From assembly GCA_002224055.1 (NCBI GenBank), contig AZLU01000038.1:124001-188000 (forward strand): a DNA stretch of 64,000 nucleotides, written 5' to 3'. Below, piece by piece: positions 6,968 to 54,334 of the stretch. The notes under the pieces are model-generated. The model was not told where the DNA came from and did no database searches. It saw only the letters and a program-made list of their open reading frames with translations. The position numbers and the translations under genes are program-made. This DNA is from Pezizomycotina sp. ARF18. Its lineage: Eukaryota; Ascomycota. The stretch's first letter is position 1; each line of letters begins with the position of its first letter.

Positions 6968-8239
6968 CTAGGGCCAGGAAACAACGCCGAAGAACAAGTC
7001 TCCGTAGTTCCAGCAGTTAAGCAAGTTCGCTCGCACAGCCCGCGCAATTTGATCCTGCGCCATTCTTACCGCCTGAAGGATACCGACCTCAATGCGGGAG
7101 TGGTCCTCTGGCCGGGGGTTATCAAGACTGTGCGTCAGCTGTACTAAACGAATTTCGAGCTGCACCACTTCGACAGACCCAACAGCATGGCGGTCTCTTT
7201 CTTGCGTCGTCGAATCGAACGAGGCTTGTAGGGTCGCGCGGAACTCGACCATACTGCTGAATTTAACGCGCGTAAGTTTTCTTAGCTTGAAGCCGACTGA
7301 GGAGATATGGGAAAAGAGGGGTTCAGGTGATGGGGTTACTGGCGGCGGTTCCATGTCAGGGGTTTTGAACTTGCCTCCGGCCTCTCCGCGGGGTTGCGCT
7401 CGACTTGACCAGCGGCCTGACTGTCGCCATTAGCCCCCTGACTTCCTAAGCTCGGGTAGCTCGCCCTTCGCGCTGGGTTTGCGGCTGGCGGGGACCGTTT
7501 TGTCGAACTGGACCACGGTAGAGATTGGGTTTGGCCCCTCTGGGCCTGAAAGTCGGATCGTATTCGCAAGCCCATTTTTTTTGTACGCCTTCTGGGCTTT
7601 TAGACACGGCCCGCACAGATTTCCGCCATCGATCTGTAGAATTTATTGCGTAGTTAGCATCTCAAGGGAATAATCGAAGTCTAAGCGTTGTCGTGATGGA
7701 TTTCTTGGAGAATGTAGACTTCAAAAGTGGCGTGAGGGGAAGGGGGCTAATTTGAGGTCTTCACTTACCGCCTTCTTATTCCATTTGCAAGCAACACATC
7801 GGTTCCTGCTAGCCTCCAAAGCACGCTGCATCGCAGGAGAGCGCCGCGCCCCGTTGTGGGTTCTAGTATAGGTATAGCATGCATCGCAAATGATATCCCC
7901 TCCGCCGAAAATTGTTTCATTGTCTCGACGTCGAACTTGCATCGCAATCCCTTGGGAGAAAGAGATTTAGTGATGTTGGAGATTAGCTTCATCGTATTTG
8001 GCATGATATATATTGGTAAAGGAATGGACTTACTCGCAACTCCGCGCTTCCACACCTTCTTCACCTTCACCTTCTTCACCTTCGTCACCTTCTCTATCTT
8101 CCATTTCCTCCTCGGCGCGGTCCTTCTCTGAACTAATCCCTTCCGCCTCCGCACCGCGTTCGACTTCGTTGGGTGGTGGGGACGCTCTCGTCAAAAACTT
8201 CCCAGCGTTGGGACGACTATCTGGACCAGGTTTAGCCAT
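6968..8239 (-). CDS. GZ1: GATA finger / Zn2Cys6-like protein, damaged copy
   Basis: Exon 1 (8,239-8,034) starts at an ATG and encodes an acidic N-terminus (runs of Glu and Asp) ending in Ser-Cys at a GTAAGT donor. Exon 2 (about 7,950-7,769) carries the second half of a GATA-type finger, with CDAC followed by a YxYxxxH segment, then a CVAC-K-W motif and another GTAAGT donor at 7,768. Exon 3 (from 7,633, after a CTAAC branch and CTACAG acceptor) gives CGPC and, one frame over, W-x-C-x-Y-D-P-x-F. The frame change falls in an A8 run near 7,578. A C-terminal helical segment follows to 6,968. The third Cys of the Cys6 cluster is absent, and exon 2 needs a frame correction. It is probably a decaying DNA-binding protein gene, or intact with sequence errors. 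Function is inferred from the finger family only. Confidence 0.55.
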
Positions 8240-9540
8240 TGACACAGTACTTGCTTCTATTAGAGTCAGTCGGGATTTATGAGTTTGACCTCGGGGAACC
8301 GTTTGTTGACTAGCACATGTTATTTATTTTGTTTGATTCTCTGTTTGTTGCGTTGGTGGTTCTAGCAGATTTTTGACAGGTGGAGAGAAAAATCAAGCAA
8401 ATTAATAAATTATTAAAGGAATCAAGTTTGCAGGTTAGTTTTTCATCTCAGAAGAGATTTGTCTCCAGGTGGCGACAACGTGGTTCGAACGCGAACGAAC
8501 GTACAGTAGGGAGGGATTTGGCTACGTTATGAAGCACGCCGTTACAATCGGCGCATGATCGCGAGGTTGGGTCCCACTCTCTTGACGTAAAATGCTTATA
8601 TTAGGGAAGATTGACCTCACCCATGTGTTCACAATGCCAAAAGGCGGAAGGCCGACTTTATAACATGTCCGCTTATTCATGCCCTCCAGTATCGCGATCC
8701 CGGAAATCGATGCAGATTTCCCGTCGTAATAGCGATATCTCAGAAGAACAATCAACTACCCCGCGCTACACAAAGCAATCGTCCGCACAATTGTGTAGAA
8801 GATGGATAATATGCTGATGTGGACCCGACAATGATAGCGTATGTGGTGTATAAAGGCGACCTCGTGGTGATGACCTCACTACAGCCTAGGACGGGTTGGT
8901 GATACCGATCTGTTGATGGCACGTTAATGGTATGAGACCAATACGTTTGTGAATTAATTTCTTCAATGGATCTAATGCCGATAATTCCATGAGCAGGATG
9001 GCGGTGCTTCTTTTGACATGAAGGTTAATGGTGGTGGGGAAGGTACCAAGAAGAGGGAGACGTAGACTTAGTTGAGGTCTTGATATAAGGGAGATGTTCC
9101 GACTCTTATTGCCATTCTCTCAAAGGAGGTTGGACTTAAGGCGCTAGTTGTATAAATAAGCTGGTGAATCATTTGACAATCACACATCAATCGCTTACGT
9201 CGCACTGAGTATTCAGACATTTTAAATGTCGCTTGAAGGCTTAGAAGAAAGCAGTGCTTCCTGAAGCGACGGGGAGTATGCACCAAGTCTAGGAATATGT
9301 CTCGTGCATTCGATTAACATTTCTTAATAAATGTAATTTTAGTTACTAACGAACATTTTCTCGTATATTCATCTCATCGTCCAATTTCCCGACTGTAATG
9401 GATTAAACTTATAATCGCAAGTTGTTTCGTGAAGGCCCGGGGTTGCCTCCTCGGGCCACCTTTTAGCCTTTTCTACAAACATAAGGCCTTTTCTTCTAAA
9501 AACAATACTCCATTTTCTCTTCTCATCTCTTCTTAAGCCC
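8240..9540. other. Intergenic with one dispersed repeat copy
   Basis: Between GZ1 and the cerato-platanin gene I find no supported gene. The start region of GZ1 (8,240-8,340) should hold its promoter. A dispersed repeat copy lies at about 8,470-8,620 (listed separately). The remaining short frames at 8,522-8,817 and 9,068-9,286 have no recognisable features. Confidence 0.4.
8470..8620. repeat. Dispersed repeat, copy A (tRNA-like segment)
   Basis: This block matches the one at about 12,945-13,090. Shared pieces include TTCGAACGCGAACGA, CGCATGATCG and an ACGTAAAA tail, in the same order and with similar spacing. Read on the minus strand, the block has a GTTCGAAC B-box-like segment and a possible anticodon-like hairpin. 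It may be an old tRNA-derived SINE or a decayed tRNA gene family, but it does not fold into a clean cloverleaf by eye, so no tRNA is called. Confidence 0.4.
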
Positions 9541-9993: not shown

Positions 9994-10134
9994 TTTTAAA
10001 GCGAATGTAGTGTGGATGGTAACGAGAGCAAGGGTGATGATATGGAAACTTTCGTGAAGTTTAGCTTCAGGTCTGAACGAATGTTTAATCGATGAGGATG
10101 ATGATATCGGTGGCTTTTGAGGGAACTTCGGGTC

Positions 10135-10143
10135 TTTATATAG
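10135..10143 (-). promoter_or_regulatory. TATA box of the cerato-platanin gene
   Basis: On the minus strand the sequence reads TATATAAAG, about 145 bp upstream of the ATG at 9,993. That distance leaves room for a 5' leader of about 110 bases. A pyrimidine-rich stretch lies between the box and the ATG. No binding site for a named regulator could be assigned. Confidence 0.55.
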
Positions 10144-10144
10144 C

Positions 10145-10870: not shown

Positions 10871-10879
10871 TCCCATTGA

Positions 10880-11583
10880 GGAAAGCTGCCTTTGGGTGGC
10901 GAGCTACATTTTTAAACCACGGAAAACTTTCCGCGAGAACAGGGAGCCGCGTGGCTTTCAAATCCCCAAGTTTTTGCTACGTTTCTTTTTGTTTGGTTCA
11001 AATTCATTCTAGCTCCCGTGCCATTTACCCCCAGCTCGAGGGATGGCACTGCAACTACTACACAGGAGCCCGATTTGATGCGTAAACTACACCTTAGGCG
11101 GACACACGCAAATGATCCACAACAAGCCGGTGCGGTTGTATGGAACACCTGTTATAATTATAAACGTCACCGTGAAGTCGATCGGCCCGTCGCTTTACAG
11201 GGCAGGCTCCGTCTAAAGAAGAAAAGCAGGTCATGCTAGTAATCCGTCACCTCTCGAATCTCCGAGCGAAAGCGGACCGCAACTACTGTCCAAAAAGGCT
11301 CAAACTCGACAGAGCCCTGTTTTTAGCTATACATATATTCAGTCGTAAAATGGCGTCCTTAATTATTCATCGCTCACCTGAAAAACGCCACAGGTTCCAA
11401 TAACACGAAAAATACTGTCTCCTATCCTCGCTTGGATTTCCCTTCGGTGGCGTAATGGGCCTCCTTGGAGAAATGGAAGCAGAAGTTATGAAATTGACTC
11501 AGGAACTAGACTGCATTGACGCTGAACATCAGCGTCGAGTTCTTCTGGAGAATCGGCTCCTTAACCTACGAAGAAACCTGTAA
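10880..11583 (+). pseudogene. GZ2: relic of the GATA / Zn2Cys6-like family
   Basis: The second half of a GATA-type finger reads in one frame at about 11,090-11,190: WNTCYNYKRH, then a D-R-P, matching the C-x2-C-Y-x-Y-x3-H-x-(5)-R-P pattern of the other copies. The third cysteine of the finger has become Trp. Upstream (about 11,045) a CNYYTGARFD stretch in another frame matches the first half. At about 11,420-11,583 an open frame ends in a charged helix (with an internal ATG at 11,454 and a stop at 11,581) that matches the family's C-terminal domain, including the G-V-x2-L-x3-M-x3-V-x2-L pattern. The Cys6 cluster between them is not readable. This is a broken copy. Confidence 0.5.
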
Positions 11584-13924
11584 AACTGCGTATTTATTGA
11601 TATCCGGGACGTGAAGAAGGGTTTGTGTCTTCAAACCTAGTTGGAGAAATTCTTGCTGAGAAGGTGAAGACGGACGTAATGGAGCTATTATCCTTCGGTG
11701 ATTGGCTGAACGAACTTGTGCCTGCCAGCTAATTAATAGCGCTGATCTGCATGAATGGACACAGGCGACATTTGTAAACCGGTGTTGAAACTGACATTTA
11801 TACCTGCTGTCCATCCTTCTATATTCTCATTTATGGGGCGAATCCAATAACAAATCTGTCGGATAAAAGACAGAACAATAGAAACTATGTAATACTAAAG
11901 CAGTTTGCAAAAGTCGTTTCCCCAAGCATTGAATTGTACTTTCACCATATGCTAGCCGGTTGGTAGATCAAAATGCGGCATTCATTGGGATCAGTGTTGG
12001 GAACCCAAAAAAGATAAATAAATATAAATCATATTTCCCGGCGTTCGCTCGACATCTATATCAGGATAGAGGTATTCTTATCAGCATTTGAACCCCAGAT
12101 ACATGTATTTTGAGGAGCGGAGGCTGCGCAGGTGCTTCAATTTGCCGAAGGCCTTTTACAAGTATTAAAAACTCCTTTTTCTTGACCTTTAAAGCCGTCC
12201 CCTGCGTATGGGGTCCGATATTTTAGCAATATCAATGAGAGTACGTAAATGAGAAAACAAATTAATAAATAAAGAGTCTCTAAGTATTATTACATCCATG
12301 CAGAGGATTTGAGGCCAAAAAAAAAGGAGAGAGGGAGAGAAAGCTATAAATTAAATATTTTGGTGGACTTCGAAATATTCCGCTTCTAACAACCGCCGAC
12401 GACAATAGTAAACAGAACAAACAAACTTCAAACTGCTATTCTAGCATTCCTACAAGTCTCTATTATAACTCGATTGCCTATCGCCTTTCTTATCAAGTGA
12501 AAGGTCTCTACTTTATCTGTGGAAGTGTTCTTAATTGATATATCTTTATATCGTTTCATCGTTACCGTTAAATCAAGAACGATCAAGAGTCGAGGCGCAG
12601 ATAGGGAAAAAACTACAGCCCCGGAAGGAGGTACTAGAAGGACATAAGGCTTTGGATCTAGGATACTAAGGGGACGGGTCGATTGTTCAAACCTTTATAT
12701 ACTACCTATCATGCATGGATGGATTGATAGACTATTATTCCTTGTTGATGTTCTTTATTTCATGAGTTCATATGGTTTGAAGAATCCTTCTGTTTTCAGT
12801 GGTTAGTGATCATCCAGGTCGCATCACTATCCCGTTCAGAAACCTTCTTGATTACTGCCAATCCCACCGACATAGCGATAATCAAGGCTTTTTTTTATGT
12901 TTCATACTGTTATTTGCTCTTTTAAACTCGGAATAAATTCTTATAATCGGCGGCAACGGGTTTCGAACGCGAACGAATCTACAGTGATCGAAAAGCTCAC
13001 CCTGACAACTCCCGCATGATCGTGAGGTCGGACCCAGGCCTCTTCACGTAAAACGTGTATGAAAAGAGGAATTCGACTGTGCGCTATATTAACAAGCGAA
13101 TGCATTCAAGACCGAGTTTGAACCCGTTCTTCTTCTCCTTGAAGTCGTCCACTGTGGTCATGTCCAAACTTCTCATATAGAAGCCGTTCAACAGATACCC
13201 GCCTTGAGAGCCTTATCAAAATCGGTCCTTCCACTACCATTGCCGGGTAAGCATCCAGTAGCCCTACTTCTATATGCGATCACCGCCACAACCAGGCTCA
13301 CCTGCTAGATCTAAAGATGTCTACATTTTCAAAGCTAGATCGTCAGCACGGTATCAATTCACTCGACAGCAGAGATATTGCCGACTGCGTTAGTTACTTG
13401 TGTAGGAATAACGGCGCGTAATATCTCTTAAAGATGTTAGCCAGTATTAGTCGCAGTATAAGACGGAAGCAAGAGAAATGGCGGAATTGTACCAAAAAAC
13501 CAAAAAAAGAAAGAAAAAGAAAGAAAAGAAAAGCACTATAAATTAAACCAGCAACCAAAAAAAAACAAACTTCCCACTGCAAACAACGAACAACAACTAT
13601 CAACTTCAACCATCGAAGGGATGTACAAAGGATAATATTTGTATAGTATTTTGTACAAAGTCACTACGGAATTCTTCTTTTTCAAAAGTACACCCTTAAT
13701 TCTTTCTCTTGTTTACCTTTTTTCGTTCTTATAATATACTGTGGTGTCGGCTTTTAAGAGGTTCATGGTGGAAAATAAAAGGAACTTCGCAACTCGTATA
13801 ACGATCAACTATGGTGCAGGCCTTTGGGAAGTATATCGAAATCACCCACTCAACACACAGATCTCATCCGGTACCATCAGTGACTACGTAGGTAACTCCA
13901 TCTCGATCGATCATCCTCAGTGAT
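11584..13924. other. Long stretch without a supported gene
   Basis: About 2.3 kb of AT-rich sequence. A minus-strand frame at 11,566-11,814 and others at 13,394-13,609 and 13,741-13,923 are short and unremarkable. One copy of the dispersed repeat lies at about 12,945-13,090. No family copy, transposon ends or RNA gene could be recognised in the remainder. Confidence 0.4.
12945..13090. repeat. Dispersed repeat, copy B (tRNA-like segment)
   Basis: This block shares TTCGAACGCGAACGA, a CTACAGT segment, CGCATGATCG and an ACGTAAAA tail with copy A at about 8,470-8,620, in the same order. The two copies are the best evidence that this is a genuine dispersed family. A third partial copy flanks the Tc1/mariner element at 15,927. 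The minus strand carries a B-box-like GTTCGAAA. Confidence 0.4.
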
Positions 13925-14330
13925 CGTTGCAGGGTTACGGAATCGCCGAGGTTTGTGGCGGGGCGATGTTATAACTGCCATGACTACTCCAAGAGGAATC
14001 CTGGCAGTGAAAGGCCATTGGAACTCGAACAAAACGCGCCAATAGAAAAACCCGGAAATGGTGCCTCACCATCCAAAGACCTAAGGCTGCACTGCTCGCA
14101 AGAACAACCTCTTGAATTAATACAAAATATCAATACAAAGCATTCATGGTGTAATAGTCCAATACCATCTTTAATATTCCCTTTCCTTTCTGTTCCATTC
14201 GATACAAAGACAGGTTATATATCTCGCATCTCACTCAGTGCGTAGGGCAGATATACCATAGTTCAACGGCTCCAAGAGTTGTGCTGTTTCCTCCTTTGAT
14301 GGAGGAAATCCAGTTGCTTAAATTCCTGGT
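13925..14330 (+). pseudogene. GZ3: partial relic of the GATA / Zn2Cys6-like family
   Basis: At about 13,927-14,060 one open frame reads a Cys, about twelve residues, then CYNCHDYSKRN, a short gap and E-R-P. This matches the end of the GATA-type finger of the other copies (C-x2-C-x2-Y-x2-R-N...R-P). The loop between cysteine pairs is shorter than the usual 17-19 residues. A Lys/Glu/Gln-rich linker follows for about 60 codons. No Cys6 cluster is visible and only a weak trace of the C-terminal helix appears near 14,290-14,330. It is probably a truncated copy. Confidence 0.4.
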
Positions 14331-14930: not shown

Positions 14931-14970
14931 TAGTAGCAAAGACTAAAGCAACAACTGCACTAACACGCCG

Positions 14971-18579: not shown

Positions 18580-19657
18580 GCTAAATTCTAACGTCTATGT
18601 GGAAACTGCTGGAAGTACTGCGATACCCACGGTAAACATTGTGCACTCGATCTGCAGGTAAAGCTTGACAAACGAAACCGGAGCAGCACCAACTTGAGGT
18701 TCCTGACGACGACGAAGACGCAATCCAATTGGAGGTGATTCAGGAGGTTTGATTTGATACCCTGTTCATGCAAACCGCTCTATCCTGAGCTTTTCAGCGA
18801 CATAGATGTCATTCCTGACTAACTTGGGTTCTCCGTTTATTCAGGGTGACGACTCCAGCAATGAACACCACAATCAACAAGACGAACTCCATCAAGATCC
18901 CCCGACGGCGACTCTCGCTCCGGAAAGCGCCGCAGATCCTCATTAACATGGCGCCGAAGTTCACACCGATACGCGCTTCAACGGCGTTTCTCACGGCAGT
19001 GTCCAGGGCCTCATTGACGAAAAACGTGCAATCAGTCGCCGTCAGCGTGAAGAGCAGTACATATATCCTCCCGGCACCAGAAAAGGAATACTATCGCGCA
19101 CCGTTTGGTTGATCTCGATTCCAATATCACGCACCCCACACTCTAGCGTTTCCTCGGGCGCCGGGAAGTTATCCTCCGTTTAAAAATGCCGCTACGTACT
19201 GCGCGGGCTGAATTGCGTGCCAACATGGACGAGCTCATGCTAATTATCCCGGTAATTTCCAAACACACGGACGTAAGCAAAATTCATTCTCCCTAGGCCG
19301 TCCCGCAAACCAACCCCAATAACGGTCTAGCTGAGGCATGGTATTACCTTGCACCACGTCCCCTTCCGCACGGTTCGAGAGTTTGTAGCCGCGCTGCGTA
19401 GTGGAATTGAGCACCTTGAGGACACTCGCGACAACAATCTTCCTGGCAGTGTCCCCCGTGCGGAAGCTGAACGCACCCTCGTAGATCTCAAGTATAACAT
19501 CCAAAATCCAATAATCGAACGTCATATAGGCCGAGAAGAAGGTATCCAGATGGCTGTTGTGCCGACGGAAATGATCACAAACGCTCTTACAGCCAATGTT
19601 CGCGAACTACTCGCTCGGGGCGATTGTTTTTTCCATTTAATTCCTTGGGTAGAGTAA
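18580..19657 (+). pseudogene. GZ4: damaged GATA / Zn2Cys6-like family copy
   Basis: At about 18,595-18,735 one frame reads CGNCWKYCDTHGKHC followed by a basic linker, matching the second half of the family's GATA-type finger (C-x2-C-W-x-Y-x3-H). The first half is only traceable just upstream in another frame. A long hydrophilic stretch follows at 18,845-19,180 (Asp/His/Gln-rich, one stop inside). The frame at 19,349-19,657 then encodes the conserved C-terminal helical domain (V-x-E-F-V-x2-L-R-S-x3-H-L-E..., ending N-V-x-E-L-L) and closes with a normal stop. The Cys6 cluster is not readable. It is a broken copy, although its C-terminal domain is well kept. Confidence 0.55.
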
Positions 19658-21999: not shown

Positions 22000-23386
22000 A
22001 TGCTTACGAAAAGCGCCTGGGCAGAGGCTGCGGAGGAACATTTGGCTACTCGGCTTCGAGAACTAGATAAAAGGGAACAGGCGCAGAAGGAAGCGATCCT
22101 GACGAATACGGGCTCGTGTGACATATCTTCCTACAAGAACCACATCGACACTCGGAAGATAGCCCACTCGCCCACTGATTATTCGATAGCTACAAAACCC
22201 AGTGACACTTGAAAGAAGCTTCCCACATCACAATGCCAAAAATGTCACAAATAAACAAAGCAAGCGGCCTATTAAATCACCCAAAAAGTCAACCCAATTC
22301 TGTCTACAATTCTGCGAGTAAGCCTCTCCAATTTACAAGAGTAAAAACTTGAACGAAAACTACGTAGGAAAGAAAAATAGCCGGGGCTAATATTTCATGC
22401 CAGCAATTGCAAATCCGATCGAACTACCAACTGGAGGATTGGTCCTGACGGCACGATCATTTGTCAGGCCTGTTGGATGTACTGGAAAGCGCACAATAGA
22501 AACCGCCCAGTAATAACGGACGACCCTAGCAAACACAAACGATCAACTACAAACAGCGATAAACAATCCTCAATGAAAAGGGCCGCAACGACGTCTCCTG
22601 CCTTTCAAGCATCCGTGCCTTGCAAATGGAATATTTCAGGTGTAAGCCGCCTAAGACTTCAAACTTGTTTCAATATGGTTGTCGTGTACACCTTGTTTCA
22701 TGTAGCTTGCTGACTTTCTTTGATTCCTTGTTTCTTTTTTTTAGTGCCGCGACGGCGACTGTTGTTCTGAGTGCACGGATATCAAACCGCAGTATCCGAC
22801 GGATAACAAAGTAGATACTTACCAAGTTCCCACGACAATCGTACACGACGTCTCGAAGAAGCGTAAATACGAGAATTCTGGTAGAGCAGTCGAACCGGTT
22901 AGACCGATGAAAAAGCGTGTCCGCACTGCTTCGGTCGATAATATAGCAATCACTTCTTGCGATAAACCCGCCGCAAACCGCCGAAAACCGAACCTTCGAG
23001 TCCGGCGATCAAATTAAACCCCGTTCACCGAGAGTAACGCGTTCACGATCACCAGCACCGCCAGCTTACAGCGCCGTCCTTGCTACTGACACCGCTACCG
23101 CCGCTGAGAGGAGCTGTGTCATACCCCGTTCGGTCAGGATCTTGTTGACGGCATAAAGTCCGAGTGTAGCAGGCTGAAGAAACTCTATTCGTCTTACCCC
23201 GAGAACAGCCAGTTAAGAGACGTCGCCAGGAAAAGTGGAGAAAGAGACGAGAAGCTGCGTGATAGCTTATTGAAACAATATCTGCACGCCGAATACGAAA
23301 TTCTTGATTTGGGTTTTACTCCAGACGTGGAGAAAGAATTAATTCAAGCTAATGTTACGGGCCTGCTTCAGAGCTTGAGCCTGTAA
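22000..23386 (+). CDS. GZ5: GATA finger plus Zn2Cys6-like cluster protein
   Basis: Exon 1 (from an ATG at 22,000; one frame change near 22,195) encodes a charged helical N-terminus and a basic KRPIKSPKK segment, ending Cys-(Asp) at a GTAAGC donor near 22,318. The next exon completes a textbook GATA-type finger: CDNC, 17 residues with a T-x-W-R-x-G-P-D-G core, then CQAC, W-x-Y-x3-H and N-R-P. A linker leads to C-K-W at about 22,620. A second intron (22,641 to about 22,743, T-rich acceptor) splits the Cys6-like cluster, which resumes with CRDGDCCSEC. A long basic linker (KKRKYEN, KKRVR) follows, and the C-terminal helical domain (about 23,130-23,386) ends in LLQSLSL. Two or three frame changes interrupt the linker. 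A nuclear DNA-binding role is likely from both fingers. Confidence 0.65.
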
Positions 23387-23589: not shown

Positions 23590-24248
23590 CTAATCACCTT
23601 CTTTCAGCATTCTTTCAAATTCGCCTCCATCAATTGTGCCTTCTTTGATTCGCCAAGTTGTTTCGCTTGGATCTTCTGTTCAGTCTGTAAGCGCTGCGTC
23701 AGCTTCCGATTTGGAGGTTCTTGGCAATCTCTAGGACTTGGCACTTTGCCACCGCCTTCAGGAGATTGTTGGTAGGATCCGAGGAAGTGAGATCCTTCAG
23801 TTCTTGCATGTTAGAGCGCATGGCGTCCATAAGGCCCTGTACGGACTTATAGGGAACGTGGTTGCTCTTGTTCGTACTTGTTTTTAGTGGAAATTTTGCG
23901 GCGCTGGCGCTTTGCAGCCAACTCAATATTTGATTCAAGCTCGGTCGCGAAAGCGGAACGCTTCGTCACTCGTGCACTATGAGTCTGCTTTTGCCCCGGA
24001 TTGTATCTGGGTACTTATACATCTCTGGTAAATCGCTCGGCGCTCGAATTAGGGTCGTACACGCATTCCCATTTGTTGCCGTTCGGGGACACCCTATACG
24101 CGCAGCCGCCGCATTCAGGTTTCTTGCGGTCGCACTTTTTGTTGATGTTCAGAGTGTAAATTAGCAAAGAACTGAGATCGGTCGGGGTCAAAGTGCAAAG
24201 CCTACTTTACCGCTGGCCCATCTACAACGGTATAACGGGATAGAGCGA
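23590..24248 (-). pseudogene. GZ6, distal part (cut off by the Copia element)
   Basis: Next to the left LTR the minus strand reads C-R-W-A-S-G at a GTAAAG donor (about 24,204), an intron of about 75 bp, and then CDRKKPECGGC with a W-E-C-V-Y-D-P motif at about 24,045. This is the Cys6-like cluster of the family. The C-terminal helical domain follows at about 23,850-23,699 (V-x-G-L-M-x2-M-R-S-N-M-x2-L-K-D-L). Its upstream part, including the GATA-type finger, lies on the far side of the retrotransposon at 29,135-29,574. The pieces carry the same strand, order and family motifs, so one gene was split by the insertion. It is now a pseudogene. Confidence 0.65.
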
Positions 24249-24253
24249 CTACT

Positions 24254-24566
24254 TGCTAGCTATTGGGCATGCCAAAGAGGCATGACAAATCTATAGGCAT
24301 CGAGGTGATGCTTGTATAGCTAAGGAACAAGGAACTTCAGCTAGAGATATCAAGATCTCAGCTAGAGATGTCGGGGAGATTACGACGACAAGGCTCTACG
24401 AGCCGTCGAGGCAAATTATATACATTATATTAAGATTATAGTATTATTAGTTATTATATATAGTATCGTATATTCCCTCAGTTAGTCTAGTTAGTTCTAT
24501 AGTTAAATCTATAAGTTCGATCCTATCCTATATTATTAGATATTATACCATATATCTACGCTAATA
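24254..24566 (+). repeat. 5' LTR of the Copia element
   Basis: It matches 28,816-29,129 throughout. Start TGCTAGC; end corresponds to the GCGCCAGCA end of the right LTR. Confidence 0.9.
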
Positions 24567-24583
24567 GGTTATAAGCCCGGTAG
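24567..24583 (+). other. Primer-binding site of the Copia element
   Basis: The bases just after the left LTR read GGTTATAAGCCCGG. They resemble the complement of the anticodon arm of initiator-methionine tRNA, the internal 'half-tRNA' primer site known from Copia elements. Confidence 0.6.
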
Positions 24584-27500
24584 TAATATATCTTAATAAA
24601 CGTATAGACTTACTTCTTAATCTCCCTAAACGATATATCTTACGATATTTCTTTTACTAAAGTTTAACGAGGTAAAGTTAAAGGCTAACTTACGAACTAC
24701 CTCGATTAGAGTACCTATATAACTACGTTCCTTAAGTATAATAAAGTCTAGGATATTACTAGTAAACCGCTTAAGGCTACGGCAGCCGATATAGAGCTAA
24801 GTACTAAAGATTAAGATAACGACTTAAAGGCGTATACTATTATCGAAACTTACTACGAGGTAGAGACTCGACGGGCTTATCTACGATCTATTAATAGTAG
24901 CGCGAATAAGGTATAAGATACCTTAAGTTCGGCGTATATCGCTATTACCGCTATTAGTAAACCTTATATTAGAAAGTAGCTAAGGTAGATTTAACTTAAG
25001 AATAAAGTTAATATTTAAGGATTTATATAGAAGTATCGAGATCTTATTAGAATATATAATAAGATATTAGGCTCGATCTTAATAGAGAAAACTAAGGCGG
25101 AAACGGTAAAAAAGACGGAGCTAGGTATAGGCTTAAAGGATAATATAGCTATAATAGAGGCTATTAATTTTATCTATAGTAATTTAGTAGCGACTAGAAA
25201 ACGTTATTATAAATTTTTAATAGATAATAGATTTAATAGTAAAGAATTGACCCTCGATATACTTGAGAAGACGCTACTCATTAAAAAGGTAAAGCGTAAA
25301 ATACGATATACCGGAGACGTTAGCTCTAAGAATAATAAGGCGCTATTTAGAAGGAAATAGTTAAGGTAAAATCTAAAGAAACGATAAAAAGGTTTATAAG
25401 TTTAAGATAATATTATTATTATGATAAGGTTAGATATAAGAGGACCGACTATAGAAGTATATAAAGGATAAAAAGGATAGCGGTAATAACGGAGTATTAG
25501 GCTTATAGTATAAACTTAGTATAAAATACTAGCTCTTAAAGAACGATCTGATAGTTCCTCGACTTAGGTATATCTTCTTATATAATAATAGAAAAGAAGT
25601 ATTCTCTACCTATAAACCCCTCTTAAAGCTATAGAATATTATAATCGGTAATAGAGAAGTACTATAGGCTATTAGTATTAGCTTAATATTTATAAGGCTT
25701 AGTAGGGAGTATAGCGGTAGTCTTATTAAACTTAAGAATACGCTATACGCTCTAAAGATAAAGTATAGCCTATTTTAATCTCTCGCGTAGATAAGGTAAA
25801 ATATATAATAATGATCTAATAAGGTAGATATACGTAACTAGACCGGGGCTAAGAATTAAAGCTACTATAAAAATAGAACTATAAAAGATCTTAGGTAAGA
25901 TTATATATCTAAAGGAAGAGTTTAGCTCTCGCTACTATATAAGAAGTATATAACGGCTTAGATATATCGGTAAGGATTATATAAGTAAATAATTAAGTAT
26001 AGAAACGTTATCGGTATTACTAAAAATAGTAGAGATCTATAGGGCTATATTAACTACGAGGCCTATAAACTTACTAAATTAAAGGCTATACTAAACCGCG
26101 GAAACCCCGTTTAAGTAAGTATAAGCTAATAGAGATAATCTTCTTAGATTTTACTAATAGACGTATATAAAGAGTCTTAGAGATTATATAGGGTTTATTA
26201 CCTTCTTTAAAGGAATAGTTAGAAGTCTTAGATTTACTTTATAAAAGATAAAAGTAGAGATAATCTCTTATACTTTAATAGTACTCTTAAGATAGCTAAA
26301 CGTTAGTTAAACCTTAAGCTTATTAAACTATAATACGATAGAAGTAAAAAATATACTTTAATCGATAGACGCTATAAAATAAAAATATAGTCTATATCTT
26401 AGCTATATATATCTTAATAAAATAGCGTACCTAAAAGCTTAATTAGATTCTTATCGATAGATTAAAGGTAATATTAGCCACATCAAAATTACCGCCGTAG
26501 CTATAGATAGAGCGGTAAATTATTATAATCTAATCTATAACTATACGCTATTAAGGCTACTCGAGATACTAAAAGATAGTAACAGACGATACCGTAGAAA
26601 AGATAGGAAGATAGAACTCCCGACATCTTAAACTTTAGAATATTTAGTAAACTATATATATATATATCGATAGTAAACTTTAGAAGAAGCCAGATAATAC
26701 TACTAAGAAAATATATTTTATAGGCTTAGAGGCTTATAATATCTACTAAGTCTAGGATCTTACTATCTAGAAAATACTAATCTATAGAGATATTAAATTC
26801 CCGATTAAATCGACCTTTAAAGTATATAACTTCGTAGAGGATAATAAAGATTCTCGAGTACTTAAACGGTAACGGCGCTAGATTATAATTAAAACTTAAC
26901 TTCCGATTATTAATTAAATATCTACGAGACATTACGTTAGAGTAGCCTAATTAGCTAGATTATAAGGATAAGAGCGAAGATCTCGATAACGCTAGCCTAT
27001 AGCTAAGATCTAAGGATACTCGCTCTTATAGAGGAAGTTACGTAATACTATAAAATAGATCTACGATAATTAATTAAAGGTATTAGGTATATTTCTAAAA
27101 TTGCTAAAGATAGATCTAGTAGTTAAACTACGAAGATACCCTATAGACTAGGATACGTTAATAAAGATCTAATAGCTATATACCTTAGAGAAAAGGCCTA
27201 TAAAGGATTAATAATATATATTAATAAATTAGAGCTACTTACCTATAAAAAGGCTATAATTCTATAAACTATAAAGAATAGTATATATCGATAGATTAAG
27301 AACTATCTTCGATTAAAGAATAAGACGTATAGAAACTTATAGATTCTTAAGATCTCTTTTAGAAGATAATATCGTCGATAGTAAATAGATATTTAAGTAT
27401 AAGCGCGATACTATCGGTCAGATTATAATACTTAAGTCGAGACTAGTTACTCGAGGTTTTATATAAAAATAAAAAATTAATTATAACGAGATATACGTAC

Positions 27501-28803
27501 TAGTAGCTAAGATATTAATAATAAGGCTATTCTTCATATTAGTAGCCTAGCTTAATCTAGAATATAAGTAGATAGATATAATAATAGCCTTCCTCGTACC
27601 TAAACTAAAATAAAGAATTATCGTTAGGTCTCTAAAAGGAAGTAGAATCGATAGATTAGTTTAGTTAATAAAGACTCTATACGGCCTTAAATAATTACCT
27701 CGAAAATAATACGGAGAACTTACCTTAGTTCTTAAATTATTTAAAGTTTAAAGTTTATTAGCTTAATAATAGCTTATTTATTAATAAGGATTATCGGCTA
27801 ATAATAATTATCTACGTCGATAATCTATTAATAGCTAGATCTAATAAATATAAAATTAAGATACTTAAACGAGATCTTAATTTATATTTTAAGATAAGGA
27901 TATAGAGTCGGTAGCCTATTTCTTAGATATATAGGTAGAACGGACTAGGTCTAAAAAATAACGCCGCCTAGTACTATATTAGTCGTATATATATAATCGC
28001 TCTTTAAAAGATTTAGGCTCGAGGATACTCTTAAGATTAATACTCTTATAAAAAGGAAAAATATTCTTTAAATAAAAGATTAAGATACTATACCGGTAAT
28101 ATAATATTAATAGATAGTAAGAAATTTAATCTATATTCTATTTACTAGGCTAACTAATACTTTCGCTATCTTAACGCTAGGGTAATACGTTAACGAGGTA
28201 ACTAAACTTATAAAAAGGTAATAAGAAGAGTATTTTAATATTAGAGAGGATCCCTTAATCGTACGCTTATGTACTATACCTATAAGATAGAGGATAAGAT
28301 ACTAGATCTACGTATTTACGTAAACGCGACTAGGCTAGATATAAGCTTACTTATAGATCTACTACCGGCTATATAGTAACGTTTAATAGAATAGCTATCT
28401 TATACTATTTAAAGAAATAACGTACTATAGCTACTAGTAGTACTAAGGTAGAATATATAGCTATAGGGAAGGCTTTACGGGAAGCTCTCTAGGTACTTCG
28501 GATACTAAAGGATATATAGCGAGCCTTTAAGTTTAAGGCTCCTAATAGTATTAAGATATATATAGATAATTAAAGCGCTATTAGTATTATAAAGGATCCT
28601 AAATACTATAGTAGAACTAAGTATATCGATATATAATATTACTTTATAAGAGAACTAGTTTGAGAAGGAACTATTAAGCCTCGATATATAAGATCGGAGA
28701 ATAATATCGCGGATATACTTACTAAACCGCTTATAAAGATATCTTATGATAGCGCTATAAAGGCTATAGTATAAGAAGATAGGATAAAGATTACTAATAT
28801 TAT

Positions 28804-28815
28804 CGATAAGGGAGG
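28804..28815 (+). other. Polypurine tract of the Copia element
   Basis: A short AAGGGAGG tract sits directly before the right LTR, where plus-strand priming takes place in LTR retrotransposons. Confidence 0.55.
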
Positions 28816-29129
28816 TACTAGCTATTAGGTATACTAAAGAGGTATAATAAATCTATAGGCATCGAGGTAATACTTATATAGCTAAGGAATAAGGAACTTT
28901 AGCTAGAGATATTAAGATCTTAGCTAGAGATATCGGGGAGATTACGACGATAAGGCTCTATGAGCCGTCGAGGCAGATTGCATATATTATATCAAGATTA
29001 TAGTATTATTAGTTTATTATATATAGCATCGTGTATTCCCTCAGTTAGTCTAGTTAGTTCTGTAGTCAAATCCACAAGTTCGATCCCATCCTACATTATT
29101 AGATATCATACCATACATCTGCGCCAGCA
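28816..29129 (+). repeat. 3' LTR of the Copia element
   Basis: It matches 24,254-24,566. It is less altered at its right end, where it keeps the GCGCCAGCA terminus next to the CTACT duplication. Confidence 0.9.
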
Positions 29130-29134
29130 CTACT

Positions 29135-29574
29135 CTCAGGGAGGAGCGTTAGCCGCTTTAGTCGCCGTCAACCCGGCTACCTTCTCAACTTTGCGCTGGC
29201 GTTCCAGCTCTAGCCCTATAGGACGAGATTGGCCGTTGTGATCTCTAAGATATTTGTAACAACTTCGCGGTTCCTCATGCCGTTTTTATCTTTCCTCCAG
29301 GAATAGCTTGCAACCTTAACAACGTTGCAGTTGCTGAGATACTATTGTTAGAATCTGGTATAGTAGAGGGAGCCAGTCTATAGAGGAAAGCCTTACTAGC
29401 ATTGCAACTCAGGTTCAAGCGTATTGCTTCAGGAGTGCCACCCCCTCGAAAATCATCGTCGTTGTTATTATCATCTCCTTCATCCCCTGCCTCCTCCTCA
29501 CCCTCCTGGAATCGCTCTTGCTGACTGCAATCCGAGCTTAGGTCACCCTGGCTCCCGTTTGTCGGCCCCTTCAA
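29135..29574 (-). pseudogene. GZ6, proximal part (acidic N-terminus and GATA-type finger)
   Basis: The minus strand encodes a strongly acidic, Asn/Asp-rich segment (about 29,560-29,430) like the N-termini of GZ1 and GZ10, then S-C-N at a GTAAGG donor (about 29,410). After a CTCAG acceptor (about 29,342) it gives N-C, a loop with S-W-R-K-D-K-N-G, and, one frame over, CYKYLRDHNGQSRP, the end of the family's GATA-type finger. The third Cys of the finger appears lost. A basic linker runs up to the Copia insertion at 29,134. The rest of the gene (Cys6 cluster, C-terminal domain) is on the other side of the element at 23,590-24,248. Confidence 0.6.
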
Positions 29575-29599
29575 GCGACCACTCCTGGTCGAAACGCGG

Positions 29600-30031
29600 T
29601 GCCGTGAAGACCGACAGATCTAGTTGTTCCGTGGTAGCGCTTGGACAAGCCACGCGCGTTGCATAAATACCCACCTTGTCCCACATCACACCTCCATAGG
29701 CTCGTGTTATTTGCACCGCAGTTGTTGCAACTTCTCTCTACGCGACCCGTCCCGATCGAGATTCATCGTCACTTTCGGAAGCAACATTTTCTTCATTTTT
29801 CGACCCATTATCAGGAGGTCCATAGCGTCATCCAGTTTTGTCCTGACTTTGTCCTTTTGGTCCGTGCTCGACGCGAGCTTTTTCTCTCTCAGCAGCATCA
29901 TTTCGCGTATTTCGTCGGGCGAGAGGCTGAGAGCCCCGACGCGACTTCGAAGTTCACATCTCGAACGGTCGCGTGGGTAGCGGAGGATTCGCCGCTTCTA
30001 TTTTTGCCTGACCGAACGGGGGAGGCTCCAT
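29600..30031 (-). pseudogene. GZ6b: second GATA-finger relic next to GZ6
   Basis: An ATG at 30,031 opens a Pro-rich stretch; Glu/Asp/Lys-rich coding-like sequence follows in changing frames. At 29,729-29,650 lies the most canonical GATA-type finger of the window: CNNC, eighteen residues with a N-T-S-L-W-R core, and C-N-A-R, followed by G-L-x3-Y-H-G-T-T-R. Compared with the GATA consensus (C-N-A-C-G-L), the fourth ligand is Arg in place of Cys, so the finger should not hold zinc as it stands. No Cys6 cluster follows before the acidic start of GZ6. It may be a truncated neighbouring copy, or an extra finger of GZ6 itself. Confidence 0.5.
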
Positions 30032-30627: not shown

Positions 30628-32160
30628 TTACGCTTCAATATGCGTTGCAAGGAAGTCCTCAAGGTTTGCCCGAAGGAGTTTCTCTTCGTCTGACTTTGCA
30701 AACTCGACGCTAAAATCTCCGCTTGAAAGTGAAGTGCTAATTCTCGCCGCGGAGCTTTCGTAGGCCATCCGGTGGTATTTTTTGACGGCAGCTTTCAATG
30801 TTTTTTGTTCATCGCACGAGGGATGCAATTCTTTAAGCGCAACAAGCTCAGATCTAAGATCATCGATGAACTGTCGAATTGTGCCAAACTTATCGATACT
30901 AGGCCTTGTGATGGAAGACCGCTTCGTAGTGGTCTGGACATTGTCCTTCGCAAGTGTCTTGGGGCATGACTGGGATTTTGTGGGCAATTTCGTTACCGGG
31001 AGAGACGGCGTTTCTTGGGTCTTTTGCAGGTGTTCGCCCTCACGTTTGATGTCGAAATTGGAACAAAAGCGCTTGGTGGCAGGGAAATTTTTTATCTCCG
31101 ACCTCGCAGTTTCGCTTTAATATCTCCTTGGAGACTTGCGTAGGTGTTGCTCTGTACATATCCGGCTTGCTAGCTGTGGCGTACTTGAAGTTTGGATCGT
31201 GATAGCATTCCCACCCACGTCTTGTTCCATTTACGCATTTTGTGACGCACTCTATGCAAGGGCTTCCACCACTACACTTTTAAAATAAAACGCCGGAAAA
31301 TTTGCGTTAGAAAAATTTCTATTTATCCAGCAGTAAGTGTCAATCCAGAGACTTTTACTTACGCGTATACCATCCCACTTGCAAACAACACGGTTGTTTG
31401 TTGCGGCTGAGCTCCGACAGCGTGGCAGCGGATCCTAGTTTTCCATTCTCTTGAAGTAGAGCAGCCGTTTCCATCCTGTTAACGCGAAGCCTCTGTTGAC
31501 GGGCCTCTTCCATGACCTGTGGTCGTTCTTTATTATATCTCCTCCAATGCACCCAGCAGGCCCTACAAACAATTTTACCGTTGTGGCCAGGGCTCCAAGC
31601 ACTCGTTTCTTCAGTTCCGCAGTTTCTACGTCGAGATTGGTTATGGAATGACAGTTAGCGTAGTGAAGTAGCCACACTTCTCCTGATGCGAGGACTTACG
31701 AGCAGGTTCGAACGACTGCCGTCTCTGTAGTTGTGCGGGATGAGTTAGTCTCGGGTTTATCATCATCCGAGGAGCGGTTCCTGTTTTTGCGAGAAGTAGA
31801 AGAACGCGATATCAGATCAAAAGCTCTTGGACCGAGACCCGTGTTTAAGTGCCAAGTTACTTCGAACACTTTCGAGTTTTCAGTCCAGCATGTTAATGCA
31901 CTGCTTGTGAGATTGGGATCACCAGACTCTGGCGTGTCCGTGACCAACGCCTCACGACACGCCGTTGGTGGTGTTACTTTCTCAATATTTTCTTGCGAGC
32001 GAGACGTATCGATCTTCAGCGGTGCATAATTAGTTGAAAAGAACGCCTCGGATCGCGAGATGGATCGAGCATCCCAACACCGGTGTTCGGCGAGCCGGCG
32101 AGAGGACAGCCTTTTAGAAGCGCCGGTTTTCCTGGAAAATTCGTCGATAGTTTCGGTAGG
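30628..32160 (-). CDS. GZ7: GATA finger plus Zn2Cys6-like cluster protein
   Basis: An open stretch without ATG from about 32,160 to 31,700 encodes a Ser/Arg/Thr-rich N-terminus, so an upstream exon or alternative start is likely. It ends Thr-Cys-(Ser) at a GTAAGT donor (31,699). After a 74-bp intron with a CTAAC branch, exon 2 (31,625-31,363) completes a perfect GATA-type finger: CSNC, 17 residues, CRAC, W-V-H-W-x3-Y-N-K-E-R-P. A linker with one frame change leads to V-V-C-K-W, and a second intron (31,362-31,277) splits the Cys6 cluster, which resumes CSGGSPCIEC...W-E-C-Y-H-D-P-N-F. The first Cys of that cluster reads Arg. The C-terminal domain (30,900-30,628) is intact: F-I-D-D-L-R-S-E-L...L-R-A-N-L-E-D-F-L. 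One of the best-preserved copies. Confidence 0.65.
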
Positions 32161-39313: not shown

Positions 39314-39414
39314 GGTTGCTTTAAACTAAGGGGTTGGACATAGGATACGTCCGTCCGTGGTGGCAAGAGTAAGTTTAATGAGCTCGACTGCCCATATAAA
39401 AAATAGTTGGACTA

Positions 39415-46582: not shown

Positions 46583-46589
46583 AATTGCT

Positions 46590-48369: not shown

Positions 48370-49298
48370 TCGATATCCCGTTCATGACGATATCCGTCCT
48401 CCAATTCCCGAGCTTCTTGCAACGCTTCAAGACTGCTCCGAGACGCTGCACCTCGATATTGTCGCGCAAGGCGTCATCCTGTTGAATTGCGGCTTGCTTC
48501 TGCCAGATTTGCTGAAAGTTAGATCCGTTCCGGTTTAGCTGCGTATTTGTGCCTTCTTCTCGCGGACCGCACGAGCGTAGTCTCCGGGTGGGTATCTATT
48601 CGTGACGAGCTTGAGGGCGCAATATCCTTCAATAAAAACTGGTGCAGTTCGTGAATGGAATCGTACATGTAGAGCGTATCGTCCACGTCGGCGATGTAGA
48701 TGTGCTGCTGAATGATGGCGGCACCGCTACCGACGGCGGCGGACCTTTCCTCGACGACCCCCTGCGAGCCTTCAGCGTTTCCATGGCAGAGTTCGCGGCG
48801 GGTTCGTCCTCCGTCTCTTCCTTGCGCGAGTTAACGACCCCGTGGTAGTCGTCAACGCAGTGGATGTCTTCGGCTCGCTCTTATTTCCAGACGCTGCTAC
48901 TTTCCCACCAGGGATCTTTCGCTCCTTTTCCTCCGAGTAAAATAGGCGATGACGACCGTGTTTGTGCTCGTACGAGTGACAAGAATCACACAATTTGTCG
49001 CCATTCTTGTCGCTCCTCCGCGAGTGCCGGGACCAAGTGTCCTCGTAGCACAATTACTAAATTCTTTCAAAATGCTAATGTCAATGTTATTCGAAATCTC
49101 AGCTGTGTTTGCGCGCTGGGGGTCGTTTGGGGGTGTGAAGGAGCCGATTCAAACCGCTCTGCAAATAAATGGAGAGTACTTACAAGTAGGTTTCCGTGAG
49201 CGTCGAATTTCAATACCCCTTTCGCCGCTCGTCCTGGCCTCGCCATCGACCGGGCCTTGAAAGGCACGGGGGTTGAATTTATCGAGGTCGTCACTCAT
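48370..49298 (-). pseudogene. GZ8: damaged GATA / Zn2Cys6-like family copy
   Basis: The ATG at 49,298 (Met-Ser-Asp-Asp-Leu) opens a short charged exon ending K-P-T-C at a GTAAGT donor (49,183). The following exon (about 49,053-48,772) encodes the rest of a GATA-type finger: C-Y-E-D-T-W-S-R, D-K-N-G-D-K-L, CDSC and H-S-Y-E-H-K-H-G-R-H-R, then a basic linker (RARKRRR). The acceptor and second cysteine do not join cleanly. Downstream, the C-terminal domain is only traceable (S-I-H-E-L-H-Q-F-L-L at about 48,650, a Glu-rich helix at about 48,450) across several frame changes. No Cys6 cluster could be read. It is probably a decaying copy. Confidence 0.5.
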
Positions 49299-49883: not shown

Positions 49884-49888
49884 ATTAT

Positions 49889-50615: not shown

Positions 50616-51110
50616 TTACGAGCTCCCGTGGGTTGCAGCTTGCTCCGAGCTCGTAGCGGTGCCCCTCTCCTGCCTCGCCGTGGAGTGGTTCGGCGCCCGA
50701 TGGCAGTCGCAGACGCAGCGGTGATCCTGGCTTGCTTTTTCTTGGCTCGCCTTGCCGCTGCCTGGGCTTAAGGCTGGGTCTCTCGGGTGGCCGGTTTTAA
50801 ATTCGGAGCTGTGACAACTGTTACACAAATTTTCCCGCTACTCGACTCTTCCTCCAATGGGACCGGAACCAAACGTATTCGAACCACAATTGCTAAAGTT
50901 TTTGTTTCGAAATTTTAGCGTCAACGCTACGCGGATTGATCATTCAAACTTTTCTCGCCGTTGGTGACGGGCTTTGATGTAAAGTGTTGATCGGAAGCGG
51001 TATGTAACCAAAGCGAGGGTACTTACAACACCTCGGGGCGGGAAACGGTGGACTGATGTTCCTGGTCTTTTTCCACGTATTACTCGTTCTCAGGGATAAT
51101 CCGCAATGTG
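50616..51110 (-). pseudogene. GZ9: truncated GATA-finger family copy
   Basis: After a GTAAGT donor near 51,026 and a TTTAG acceptor near 50,894 the minus strand reads N-C-G-S-N-T-F-G-S-G-P, one in-frame stop, then L-CNSC-H-S-S-E-F-K-T-G-H-P-R, the two halves of a family GATA-type finger in a single frame. The aromatic core residue is Phe rather than Trp. A Lys/Ala/Gln-rich linker with a C-V-C-D-C run follows and stops at 50,616. No Cys6 cluster or C-terminal domain is present before the poly-T tract. It is a truncated, non-functional copy. Confidence 0.5.
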
Positions 51111-52459: not shown

Positions 52460-54334
52460 ATGACGAGGATCCGTTTCCACCTATCTCCCCCGGCTAACCA
52501 TTCCGTTACGGGTACGTCGCCGGCAGCGATGCAGATCCCCATCCCACCAGAGGAGATCATGAAAGGCTTCTATTCTCCCAGCCAGGAGCCTGAGAACGAC
52601 AAACCAGAAGACCAACAGGCCATCGCATTACGGCGGACGGGTACCTGCAGCCGAACTACCCGAGGAGGAAGACTCCGAGTCGGGCTCGGACTTGTCTGAC
52701 CTGTCGATCGACGGGATGAAAGATCACACGCTTGAAAACGGCATCCAGCTCTCCGGCGATGAGGACGAAGGAGAGTTCACCGATATGGAGATTGATATGT
52801 ATGGTAATGAAGAGGAGGAGCTCGGAGATATTGAAGAGGAAGTTGAAGCTGGGGAAGAAGAGCTTGAGGAGGCGAACTTGAAGGTATTAAGGATGAGACC
52901 CTTACCGGAAACCAGAACGAGAACGGCGATGACGTTTGCAGGTAAGAAACGTCGCCTACCCCTTCACTTAAATTCTAGTTCCCTCTCTATCACAAATCGT
53001 TGCTTCAACTACTTCACCACTAGCAAACTCACTGTGAATTAACTAGCAACTGCCACACCAAACGGGCCGACACGTTGAAGTTCGTTCAGACTAAGGACGG
53101 GCCTGTCCTATGTGTCAACTGTTACGTCTATCAACGCAGGCACCACAAGGACCGCCCTCCGGGTTTGGAAGCCGAGCGCCTCGCCGGCACCCGTGGAAAG
53201 TCGGTTCTTCAGAACATAGGTCATGACTCAGATCACGAGGCCGAGGACAAAGATGTCACCGCCGGTGTTACCAAGCCCAGGCGCAGCGGGAGGAAGTTCC
53301 AGCAGCCCATCACCGCTGCTGAAGAAACTATCGCCAAGCAGGTTGCTCCTGTCAACGGGAATTCCGGAGCCGTCAAGGGAAAGGCTGTTCAGACGAAGCC
53401 GGGGAGGTCGTGCGTTCCTTGTAGTTGGACCGGTAGGAGGGTATGAGCTCACCCGCGCACTTCTACCCCTTCCCATTCGCATAAGAACTCTTTGGATCGA
53501 TGCTCATAAAACCATGTTTCACTAGTGCGACAAGGAATCCCCTGCTCCTCCTGCACCGAATGGCAGGCCAGGCGTGGAAAAACCTGGGACTGCTACTACG
53601 ACCCCAACTTCACTCGTCCGAAGGGTCCCACGCCAGCTATCTACAGGGTGGAAACGATCGCACCCACCCGGCGCATGGAAATACCAAAGGCAAGAAGGCT
53701 CTCCTTGACAAGGTATGTTTATTCCCCTACCCCTTCTGACACAAAAAAACAGCTCATACTAATGCAAATTTTCCACAGCCGACCAACGTCAAGCGCGCGG
53801 GAGTCCCCGCCACCACCGAACCGCGTCCCCAACGCCGCCACGGCCCGCCATGAAAGCCGCCACCGAAACCACTCACGCATCCTCAAACGGTATCTACTCG
53901 ACCATGGAAAAATCCCCGCCCGCTTCATCCCCAAAACCCCATTCCTCCACGTCCCGGTCCATTACCACCGTCCGCGCCCTCAAACTTTCCCTCGAGACGG
54001 ACGTCCGCGCCTCAACGACATCGCGGAGACTTCGCCGGTCACGCAGCAGTTCCTCCGCTCGGCTGCCGAGAAGCGCGTTTTGGAGTTGGCTAGCAATTTG
54101 CGCCATGCGAAGCTCGCGGCGTATTTGGCGACTGAAGAGCAGATTGAAGGGAGTGGGTTGGCTGAGAGTATTAAGGAGGAGATGGTTAAGGAGAATTTAA
54201 AGGGTGTTTGGCTGATGGGGATTGGAAGGGGGGTTGGTTGTTTGAAGAGGGAGACGACCTTGACGATTTGGATTCTCCGGAACCTAACGATAACGGACTT
54301 TTTTAACTTTGCATTTCATACCGAAACATTATAG
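52460..54334 (+). CDS. GZ10: most complete GATA / Zn2Cys6-like dual-finger gene
   Basis: Exon 1 (52,460-52,941) starts at an ATG and, after one frame change at about 52,620-52,690, encodes a long acidic domain (D-E-D-E-G, E-E-E-E-L) ending D-V-C. Intron 1 (52,942-53,046) splits the GATA-type finger. Exon 2 (53,047-53,440) completes it: CSNC, 19 residues, CVNC, Y-V-Y-x3-H-H-K-D-R-P. A linker leads to C-V-P-C-S-W-T-G-R-R. Intron 2 (53,441-53,525) splits the Cys6 cluster. Exon 3 (53,526-53,712) gives C-D-K, then one frame over I-P-C-S-S-C and W-D-C-Y-Y-D-P-N-F. Intron 3 is 53,713-53,777. Exon 4 carries a Pro/Ser/Thr linker and the C-terminal domain (L-K-L-S-L-E-T-D-V..., K-R-V-L-E-L-A-S-N-L). 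Probable nuclear DNA-binding protein. Confidence 0.65.
52942..53046 (+). other. GZ10 intron 1, inside the GATA-type finger
   Basis: GTAAGA donor and ACTAG acceptor, 105 bp. It cuts the codon after the first zinc-ligand cysteine. The same position is used in GZ1, GZ5 and GZ7. Confidence 0.7.
53441..53525 (+). other. GZ10 intron 2, inside the Cys6-like cluster
   Basis: GTATGA donor and CACTAG acceptor, 85 bp, placed just before the third cysteine of the cluster. GZ5, GZ6 and GZ7 have an intron at the same place. Confidence 0.65.

Follow-up and report, generated by a model that had tools for sequence, protein, structure and literature searches.

Fungal proteins that combine two classes of DNA-binding domain have been described as dual-specificity factors. 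In Table 3 of the survey of Shelest (2017, PMC5415576), factors combining a GATA finger with a Zn-cluster appear in 5 of the 191 fungal genomes, and no genome has more than one. The same survey describes C2H2 plus Zn-cluster factors (Cmr1/Pig1 and the A. nidulans set) in 140 of the 191 genomes, with up to 23 genes per genome, and reports loss of a module after duplication in another dual family. For the GATA factors SREB, SRE1, SREA and SRE an intron at a conserved location is reported in each finger (PMC2848559), and 8 GATA and 63 Zn_clus genes are reported for Pyronema confluens (PMC3778014). Here we describe a family of genes in Pezizomycotina sp. ARF18 that was first seen in a 64,000-nucleotide stretch of DNA (the window; positions 124001-188000 of contig C38, in an assembly of 46.36 Mb and 408 contigs). 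Its members join a GATA-type finger to a module of six cysteines spaced much like a Zn2Cys6 cluster (the Cys6 module) and to a C-terminal domain.

By their published description, the GATA plus Zn-cluster factors have the same two domain classes in one fungal protein as the family described here. They differ in number, since we find about 27 loci in this genome, and in the Cys6 module, which Pfam does not see. The C2H2 plus Zn-cluster factors, as that survey describes them, likewise have two zinc modules per protein and paralogues that have lost one, although their first module is a different one. A first-pass annotation of the window had called the family undescribed. That calls for qualification: the combination itself is already published in singleton proteins (PMC5415576), and what we did not find in the open-access literature searched is a multi-copy GATA plus Zn-cluster family.

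Full-motif scans in single frames gave no match. Because the genes contain introns and these scans were empty, the copies were read exon by exon. One locus, L015 on contig C289, did not need this. Here the finger (about residues 77-121), a linker, the Cys6 module (about residues 149-203) and the C-terminal part lie in one open frame of 346 amino acids (L015:1069-2106 = C289:31120-32157, minus strand). A short A-rich run lies about 150 bp past its stop. When this frame was compared with the PDB by phmmer, residues 63-121 aligned with GATA-3 (E 8.1e-7). Since the uninterrupted frame holds both modules, the finger and the Cys6 module belong to one protein, which was the central proposal of the first-pass annotation. 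Judged from sequence, L015 would encode a protein with two DNA-binding domain classes, as in the dual-specificity factors.

L015 lacks both of the introns present in other copies, and therefore marks the points at which those introns cut. Its lack of introns may reflect either a retrocopy or intron loss. Where introns are present, the first of them cuts the finger inside its first CxxC, at the end of exon 1 (TGC NN|GT...). Exon 2 then encodes the remainder of the finger, the linker and the opening CxxC of the Cys6 module. Exon 3 begins exactly at the third cysteine of that module (C3) and continues towards the C-terminal domain. AG stands immediately before the C3 codon in all 13 intron-bearing copies in which it could be placed, and not in L015 (15 anchors chosen by eye; that of L048 was not found, and the codon in the 7.9-kb copy encodes Ile). 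A basic motif resembling a nuclear localisation signal (NLS) was seen in 7 of the 14 copies examined. The C-terminal domain is conserved and helical-looking, and Pfam gave nothing for it at E<=0.1.

We then compared the Cys6 module with Zn2Cys6 clusters. Its consensus is C-V-P-C-x-W-x-G-x-x-C-D-x-G-x-P-C-x2-C-x11..14-C-Y-Y-D-P-x-F, and the pattern C-x2-C-x6-C-x5..12-C-x2-C is present in L015 without splicing and in L017, L018 and L023 once spliced. A ten-row profile of the module, in which the L016 row was joined without an identified donor, was run against 177,635 distinct PDB sequences. All 19 matches at E<=10 were Zn2Cys6 proteins by name, representing about seven different proteins: GAL4 (the best, E 0.014), PUT3, Cep3, Pho7, HAP1/CYP1, RSC3 and LEU3. 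Two column-permuted control profiles gave 2 and 3 matches, which were unrelated and included no Zn2Cys6 protein; these controls are imperfect, as gapped rows lost their cysteine spacing. It is the purity of this list, and not any single E-value, that gives weight to the kinship. By hhalign, seven of the ten rows aligned with 11 Zn_clus domains of this genome with a probability of 93.9 (E 1.6e-7). In addition, among the genome's canonical Zn_clus genes there is one, C55, in which an exon begins at this C3 codon too and in which the C-x5-C spacing is found (nine genes viewed; its upstream exon was not identified). Further likenesses to GAL4, PUT3 and Cep3 are the C-x2-C-x6-C-x5-C-x2-C order, a CD before the fourth cysteine and C-x-Y at the last. 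Unlike them, most family copies have a Trp at the second position after C2, which occurs in 0 of the 11 Zn_clus domains of this genome. We therefore take the Cys6 module to be a divergent relative of Zn2Cys6, in agreement with the first-pass annotation. In view of its last spacing and its lack of a Pfam match, both given below, we did not file it as PF00172.

The profile of the finger gave 18 PDB matches at E<=1, of which 16 are named GATA or AREA (best GATA-3, E 1.4e-18); the other two are MTA1, which we take to be GATA-type, and CasX (E 0.69). The spacing C-x2-C-x17..20-C-x2-C is found with x17 at 22 and 31 kb of the window, x18 in L015 and L017 and x19 at 53 kb, and one finger of L054 has x24. 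Pfam GATA gave no match for L015 or L017. The genome search also found five canonical GATA fingers at four loci outside the family. One of these loci, on contig C114 (about 20.8-21.5 kb, minus strand), has two fingers with the Cys-rich stretch CPGGGKCNGTGGAEGCNGC between them, and on these grounds we take it to be an SREA-type gene. Finger 1 of C114 is split as TGC AG|T AAC TGC, at the same codon and in the same phase as the family's finger intron (C-S|N-C, phase 2), whereas the other four canonical fingers are uninterrupted at that site. Among nine family copies viewed, donor and acceptor were both identified in five and one of the two in four. All ten family fingers aligned scored best against C114 finger 1 among the five canonical fingers, with a margin below 1 bit for the first 29-kb finger and with two of the five (C114 finger 2 and C4) truncated or damaged. 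Of the canonical fingers compared, finger 1 of the SREA-like gene is the one that the family finger resembles most in sequence, and the intron position is common to both.

Because the finger shares this intron site and the exon start at C3 also occurs in C55, a fusion of parts of two ordinary genes is supported. As the SREA/SRE/Fep1-type iron-responsive GATA factors are described in PMC2848559, the family is like them in its similarity to finger 1 and its intron position. Two fingers also occur in some members (the 24/29-kb gene, L054, and L014 by eye). Unlike that type, L054 has no Cys between its two fingers, the family adds a Cys6 module, and the genome keeps C114 as a separate gene. L054 (C1:108.0-109.6 kb) has no recognised Cys6, and the two GATA-type fingers of L014 lie on C78. 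A C-x2-C...C-x2-C stretch stands at the expected place of the Cys6 module in L053 (C1:105 kb).

The family had been described as expanded within one island. We searched the genome with profiles in which members were included as seeds, using shuffle-based thresholds. Among the matches listed there were 29 clusters, which became 25 after four with canonical GATA genes were removed. Two of these hold two genes each, judged by how their parts are ordered, two are halves of one split gene, and C1:99.2 kb is to be added, giving about 27 loci on seven contigs (C1, C22, C38, C78, C136, C161 and C289). The family is therefore dispersed rather than confined to an island. Both zinc modules were above threshold at at least nine loci, with the split gene as a tenth, and at at least seven of the nine all three parts were in order, on five contigs. 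Several other loci are known by one part only, through the ends of the 3-kb pieces fetched, loss of a part or a weak match. As a further test, a finger profile made from window copies alone (E<=0.05, right strand, 5' of the other parts) matched at 7 of the 19 family loci tested and at none of the 28 control loci (Fisher p 0.0008). The 19 include L033, which was retrieved with the entire L015 protein, and L046, retrieved with a finger exon, neither of which matched; wrong-strand matches at L020 and L048 were not counted, and the 28 controls include 8 overlapping stretches of four HSP70 genes.

Within the window we used profiles built from loci outside it only, and compared the results with 30 dinucleotide-shuffled windows. 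The best E-values were 1.5e-9 for the GATA part (best shuffle 0.002), 8.9e-14 for the Cys6 part (0.022) and 4.9e-17 for the C-terminal part (0.25). This is far above the shuffles, and the motifs claimed by the first-pass annotation, a GATA-type C-x2-C-x17..19-C-x2-C followed by R-P and a C-x2-C-x6-C-x5-C-x2-C...W-x-C-x-Y-D-P, are present. Three window fingers exceed the 26.8-bit cut-off of Pfam GATA, those at 22, 31 and 29 kb (42, 35.3 and 27.4 bits); those at 53 and 49 kb are under it (17.4 and 16.2). The annotation counted ten or eleven copies. We read ten loci, not eleven, with some part above the shuffle thresholds at eight of the ten and both zinc modules above them at four (7.9, 24/29, 31 and 53 kb). 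Its open reading frame (ORF) borders, such as 6968-7429, did not hold as gene borders, the frames being interrupted where bases are missing, as is typical of this assembly.

All three of the best values belong to the 53-kb copy (GZ10; 52460..54334, plus strand), in which the splice sites were identified. Exon 1 is 52460-52941, exon 2 with the finger and CVPC is 53047-53440, and exon 3 runs from 53526 with the rest of the Cys6 module and the C-terminal domain (about 53951-54229); one base is missing inside CDK/GIPC. In the 31-kb copy (GZ7; 30631..31740, minus strand) exon 1 ends at 31700 and exons 2 and 3 are 31625-31363 and 31276-30631. Its first Cys6 cysteine is replaced by Arg when read in the frame that matches the motif (Pfam GATA E 2.1e-8; outside-only profiles, GATA 4.8e-5 and Cys6 1.3e-9). 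The 22-kb copy (GZ5; 22206..23386, plus strand; exon 1 to 22317, exon 2 22404-22641, exon 3 from 22745) has a finger (Pfam GATA 2.1e-10, outside-only GATA 3.4e-5) and a C-terminal match (0.0027). Its Cys6 module is degenerate and was recognised by eye only, with Ser as first cysteine and no WxC. The 7.9-kb copy (GZ1; 6968..8239, minus strand) has an acidic N-terminus, a finger with a frame slip, CVACKWNKKA, and the second half of a Cys6 module with Ile as third cysteine and WACEYDPTF (outside-only GATA 5.6e-4, Cys6 5e-6).

At 49 kb (GZ8; 48380..49240, minus strand) we see the latter half of a GATA-type finger, in which the frame slips (outside-only GATA 4.3e-5), and no Cys6 was recognised. A weak copy at 10916..11740 (GZ2, plus strand) has a finger tail with Trp as third cysteine and a possible C-terminal helix (outside-only GATA 3e-4), and another at 18592..19654 (GZ4, plus strand) has a C-terminal domain with E 0.026, against 0.25 for the best of 30 shuffles, and a non-significant finger tail (0.27). 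Two loci with no part above the shuffle thresholds are doubtful. The one near 13.9 kb (GZ3; 13892..14242, plus strand) is a finger tail alone with E 0.0065, while one shuffle reaches 0.002. The one near 50.9 kb (GZ9; 50640..50900, minus strand) reads SNCGS...LCNSCHSSEFKTGHPR with an intervening stop and is absent among the outside-only profile matches.

The tenth locus is the split gene, which the first-pass annotation had taken for two copies. Its 5' half (GZ6b; 29130..29762, minus strand) has two GATA-type fingers, at 29762-29574 and, with a frame slip, at 29341-29139 (GATA 27.4 bits; outside-only 8.8e-5). Its 3' half (GZ6; 23600..24253, minus strand) has the Cys6 exon, with the C3 codon at 24134, and the C-terminal domain (outside-only Cys6 1e-7, C-terminal 1.4e-5). 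Between them, at 24254..29129 (plus strand), lies a Ty1/copia-like long terminal repeat (LTR) element of 4876 bp marked by repeat-induced point mutation (RIP), with TG...CA ends and the target duplication CTACT on both sides. Since this element parts the fingers from the Cys6 exon and the two halves are on the same strand, we treat them as a single interrupted gene (29762-29130, 24253-23600). The LTRs are the direct repeats 24256-24561 and 28818-29124 (about 306 bp), and 33 of the 35 differences between them are transitions. The interior has a GC fraction of 0.285 and a RIP-like (CA+TG)/(AC+GT) ratio of 0.06, and a 47-residue piece of the element matches RVT_2 with E 5.7e-4, under its Pfam cut-off.

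Many copies contain frame slips, and we asked how such slips should be read in this assembly. Five HSP70 genes (C49, C70, C303, C208 and C3) contain 21 frame switches in 9132 bp, or about one per 435 bp, none of them with space for an intron (from 35 of the 38 rows, without two of C44 and one of C10). Nineteen of the 21 were net losses and 14 were a single missing base. Because conserved HSP70 genes slip in the same way, frame slips are uninformative about decay, and we rejected them as a test of whether copies are pseudogenes. The frame switches affect any ORF-based reading of the whole window. In pairs of copies that include window copies, the pairs not being independent of each other, codon positions 1, 2 and 3 differ at 0.38, 0.42 and 0.59 in the Cys6 module and at 0.48, 0.46 and 0.67 in the finger, an excess at third positions that speaks for coding constraint. 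No RIP signal was seen in three copies and two halves, whose (CA+TG)/(AC+GT) ratios were 0.93-1.27 against 0.06 inside the LTR element. Some copies may nevertheless be dead or altered, because ligand cysteines are Ser, Arg and Ile at 22, 31 and 7.9 kb respectively and a stop lies inside 6 of 12 C-terminal matches.

On balance we think it probable that these genes encode DNA-binding regulators, that is, chimeric nuclear proteins amplified in this lineage. In this proposal an SREA-type GATA finger, with a phase-2 intron in its first CxxC and present twice in some members, would have been joined to a Zn2Cys6-like cluster whose third cysteine is immediately preceded by a phase-0 intron. The NLS-like stretch of half the copies examined and the C-terminal domain come after the cluster. 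Both zinc modules would bind DNA, the finger at a GATA-like core and the Cys6 module at a short half-site beside it; the C-terminal domain may dimerise or recruit partners. The proteins would then be regulators with composite sites that diverge fast between copies. Besides the narrow margin and damaged fingers in the SREA comparison, several observations weigh against this proposal. The L015 frame has no ATG 5' of the finger, its likely start being one base out in another frame, and Pfam detects neither module in it. The last Cys6 spacing is 11-14, in the nine profile rows that reach the last Cys, against 6 in GAL4; in Zn2Cys6 clusters it is usually 6-9. No single match to a Zn2Cys6 structure has an E-value better than 0.014, and Pfam Zn_clus gave no match at E<=1 in the pieces scanned. 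Lys and Arg residues in the C2-C3 loop average 2.3 in 10 family loops and 3.9 in 11 Zn_clus loops of this genome (p 0.002). Canonical GATA fingers conserve W-R-R and N-A-C-G-L-Y; among the ten aligned family fingers W is kept in seven, and W-R-R and N-A-C-G-L-Y in none. Finally, a zinc ligand or an entire module is missing from several copies.

Given how degraded the contact residues are, these proteins may have a role other than DNA binding. The modules could be relics kept for structure or protein contacts, in co-regulators or adaptors that do not bind specific sequences; the poorer basic loop, the lost GATA contacts and the variability of the modules between copies would suit this, yet L023 (CKWRGKKC) and L018 (CKWRKMSC) keep Lys and Arg at Zn2Cys6-like positions and NLS-like motifs occur in half the copies, and we regard it as a possible but doubtful alternative. 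We also think it unlikely that we are dealing largely with the remains of a family amplified long ago, with pseudogenes as its copies in the window. The frame slips of many copies, the loss of zinc ligands, the LTR-split copy and the stops point that way; against it stand the same kind of slips in the HSP70 genes, the third-position excess and the lack of a RIP signal in the copies tested. That the Cys6 module resembles Zn2Cys6 through chance or convergence would fit its weak single E-values and the failure of Pfam, as would a genome-wide Zn_clus search in which 0 of 23 matches was a family locus. This reading is largely refuted by the pure PDB list, the lack of Zn2Cys6 proteins among the matches of the permuted controls, the hhalign result and the exon start and C-x5-C spacing shared with C55, and we hold it to be very improbable. 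The finger and the Cys6 module could be neighbouring separate genes, given that most of the Cys6 module is in a different exon from the finger in the intron-bearing copies. The single frame of L015 refutes this for that locus, and the same order of three parts at seven loci on five contigs makes it hardly credible elsewhere. Returning to the regulator proposal, a bolder and rather unlikely extension is that a Zn2Cys6 gene took up a duplicated SREA-type finger, or that the capture ran the other way, and that the product was amplified to about two dozen dispersed, fast-diverging regulators reading GATA-plus-half-site elements. These might compete with the SREA-like repressor and, as a new class of chimeric transcription factor, might have rewired part of the iron or a related regulon in this one lineage.

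Two other features of the window were noted. A cerato-platanin gene lies at 9541-10146 on the minus strand (PF07249, E 9.4e-30). Five ORFs on the minus strand (34910-35683, 36484-36915, 38912-39325, 43559-44317 and 46174-46578) have a signal-peptide-like start followed by [EK]AAP[TP] and are possibly a local family of secreted proteins; the two that were scanned, at 34910 and 43559, gave no Pfam match at E<=0.1. We also compared the L015 frame with 5.8 billion proteins and found nothing at E<=0.1. Since the cerato-platanin of the window was also unmatched there at E<=1e-5, that search is silent on fungi, and absence of the family from other organisms was rejected as a conclusion.

The family is dispersed and carries marks of its origin: an intron in each module, a member without introns and a member split by a retrotransposon. 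In such a family fusion, amplification and module loss may be traced. The Cys6 module and some of the fingers would be missed by counts of regulators that are based on Pfam.

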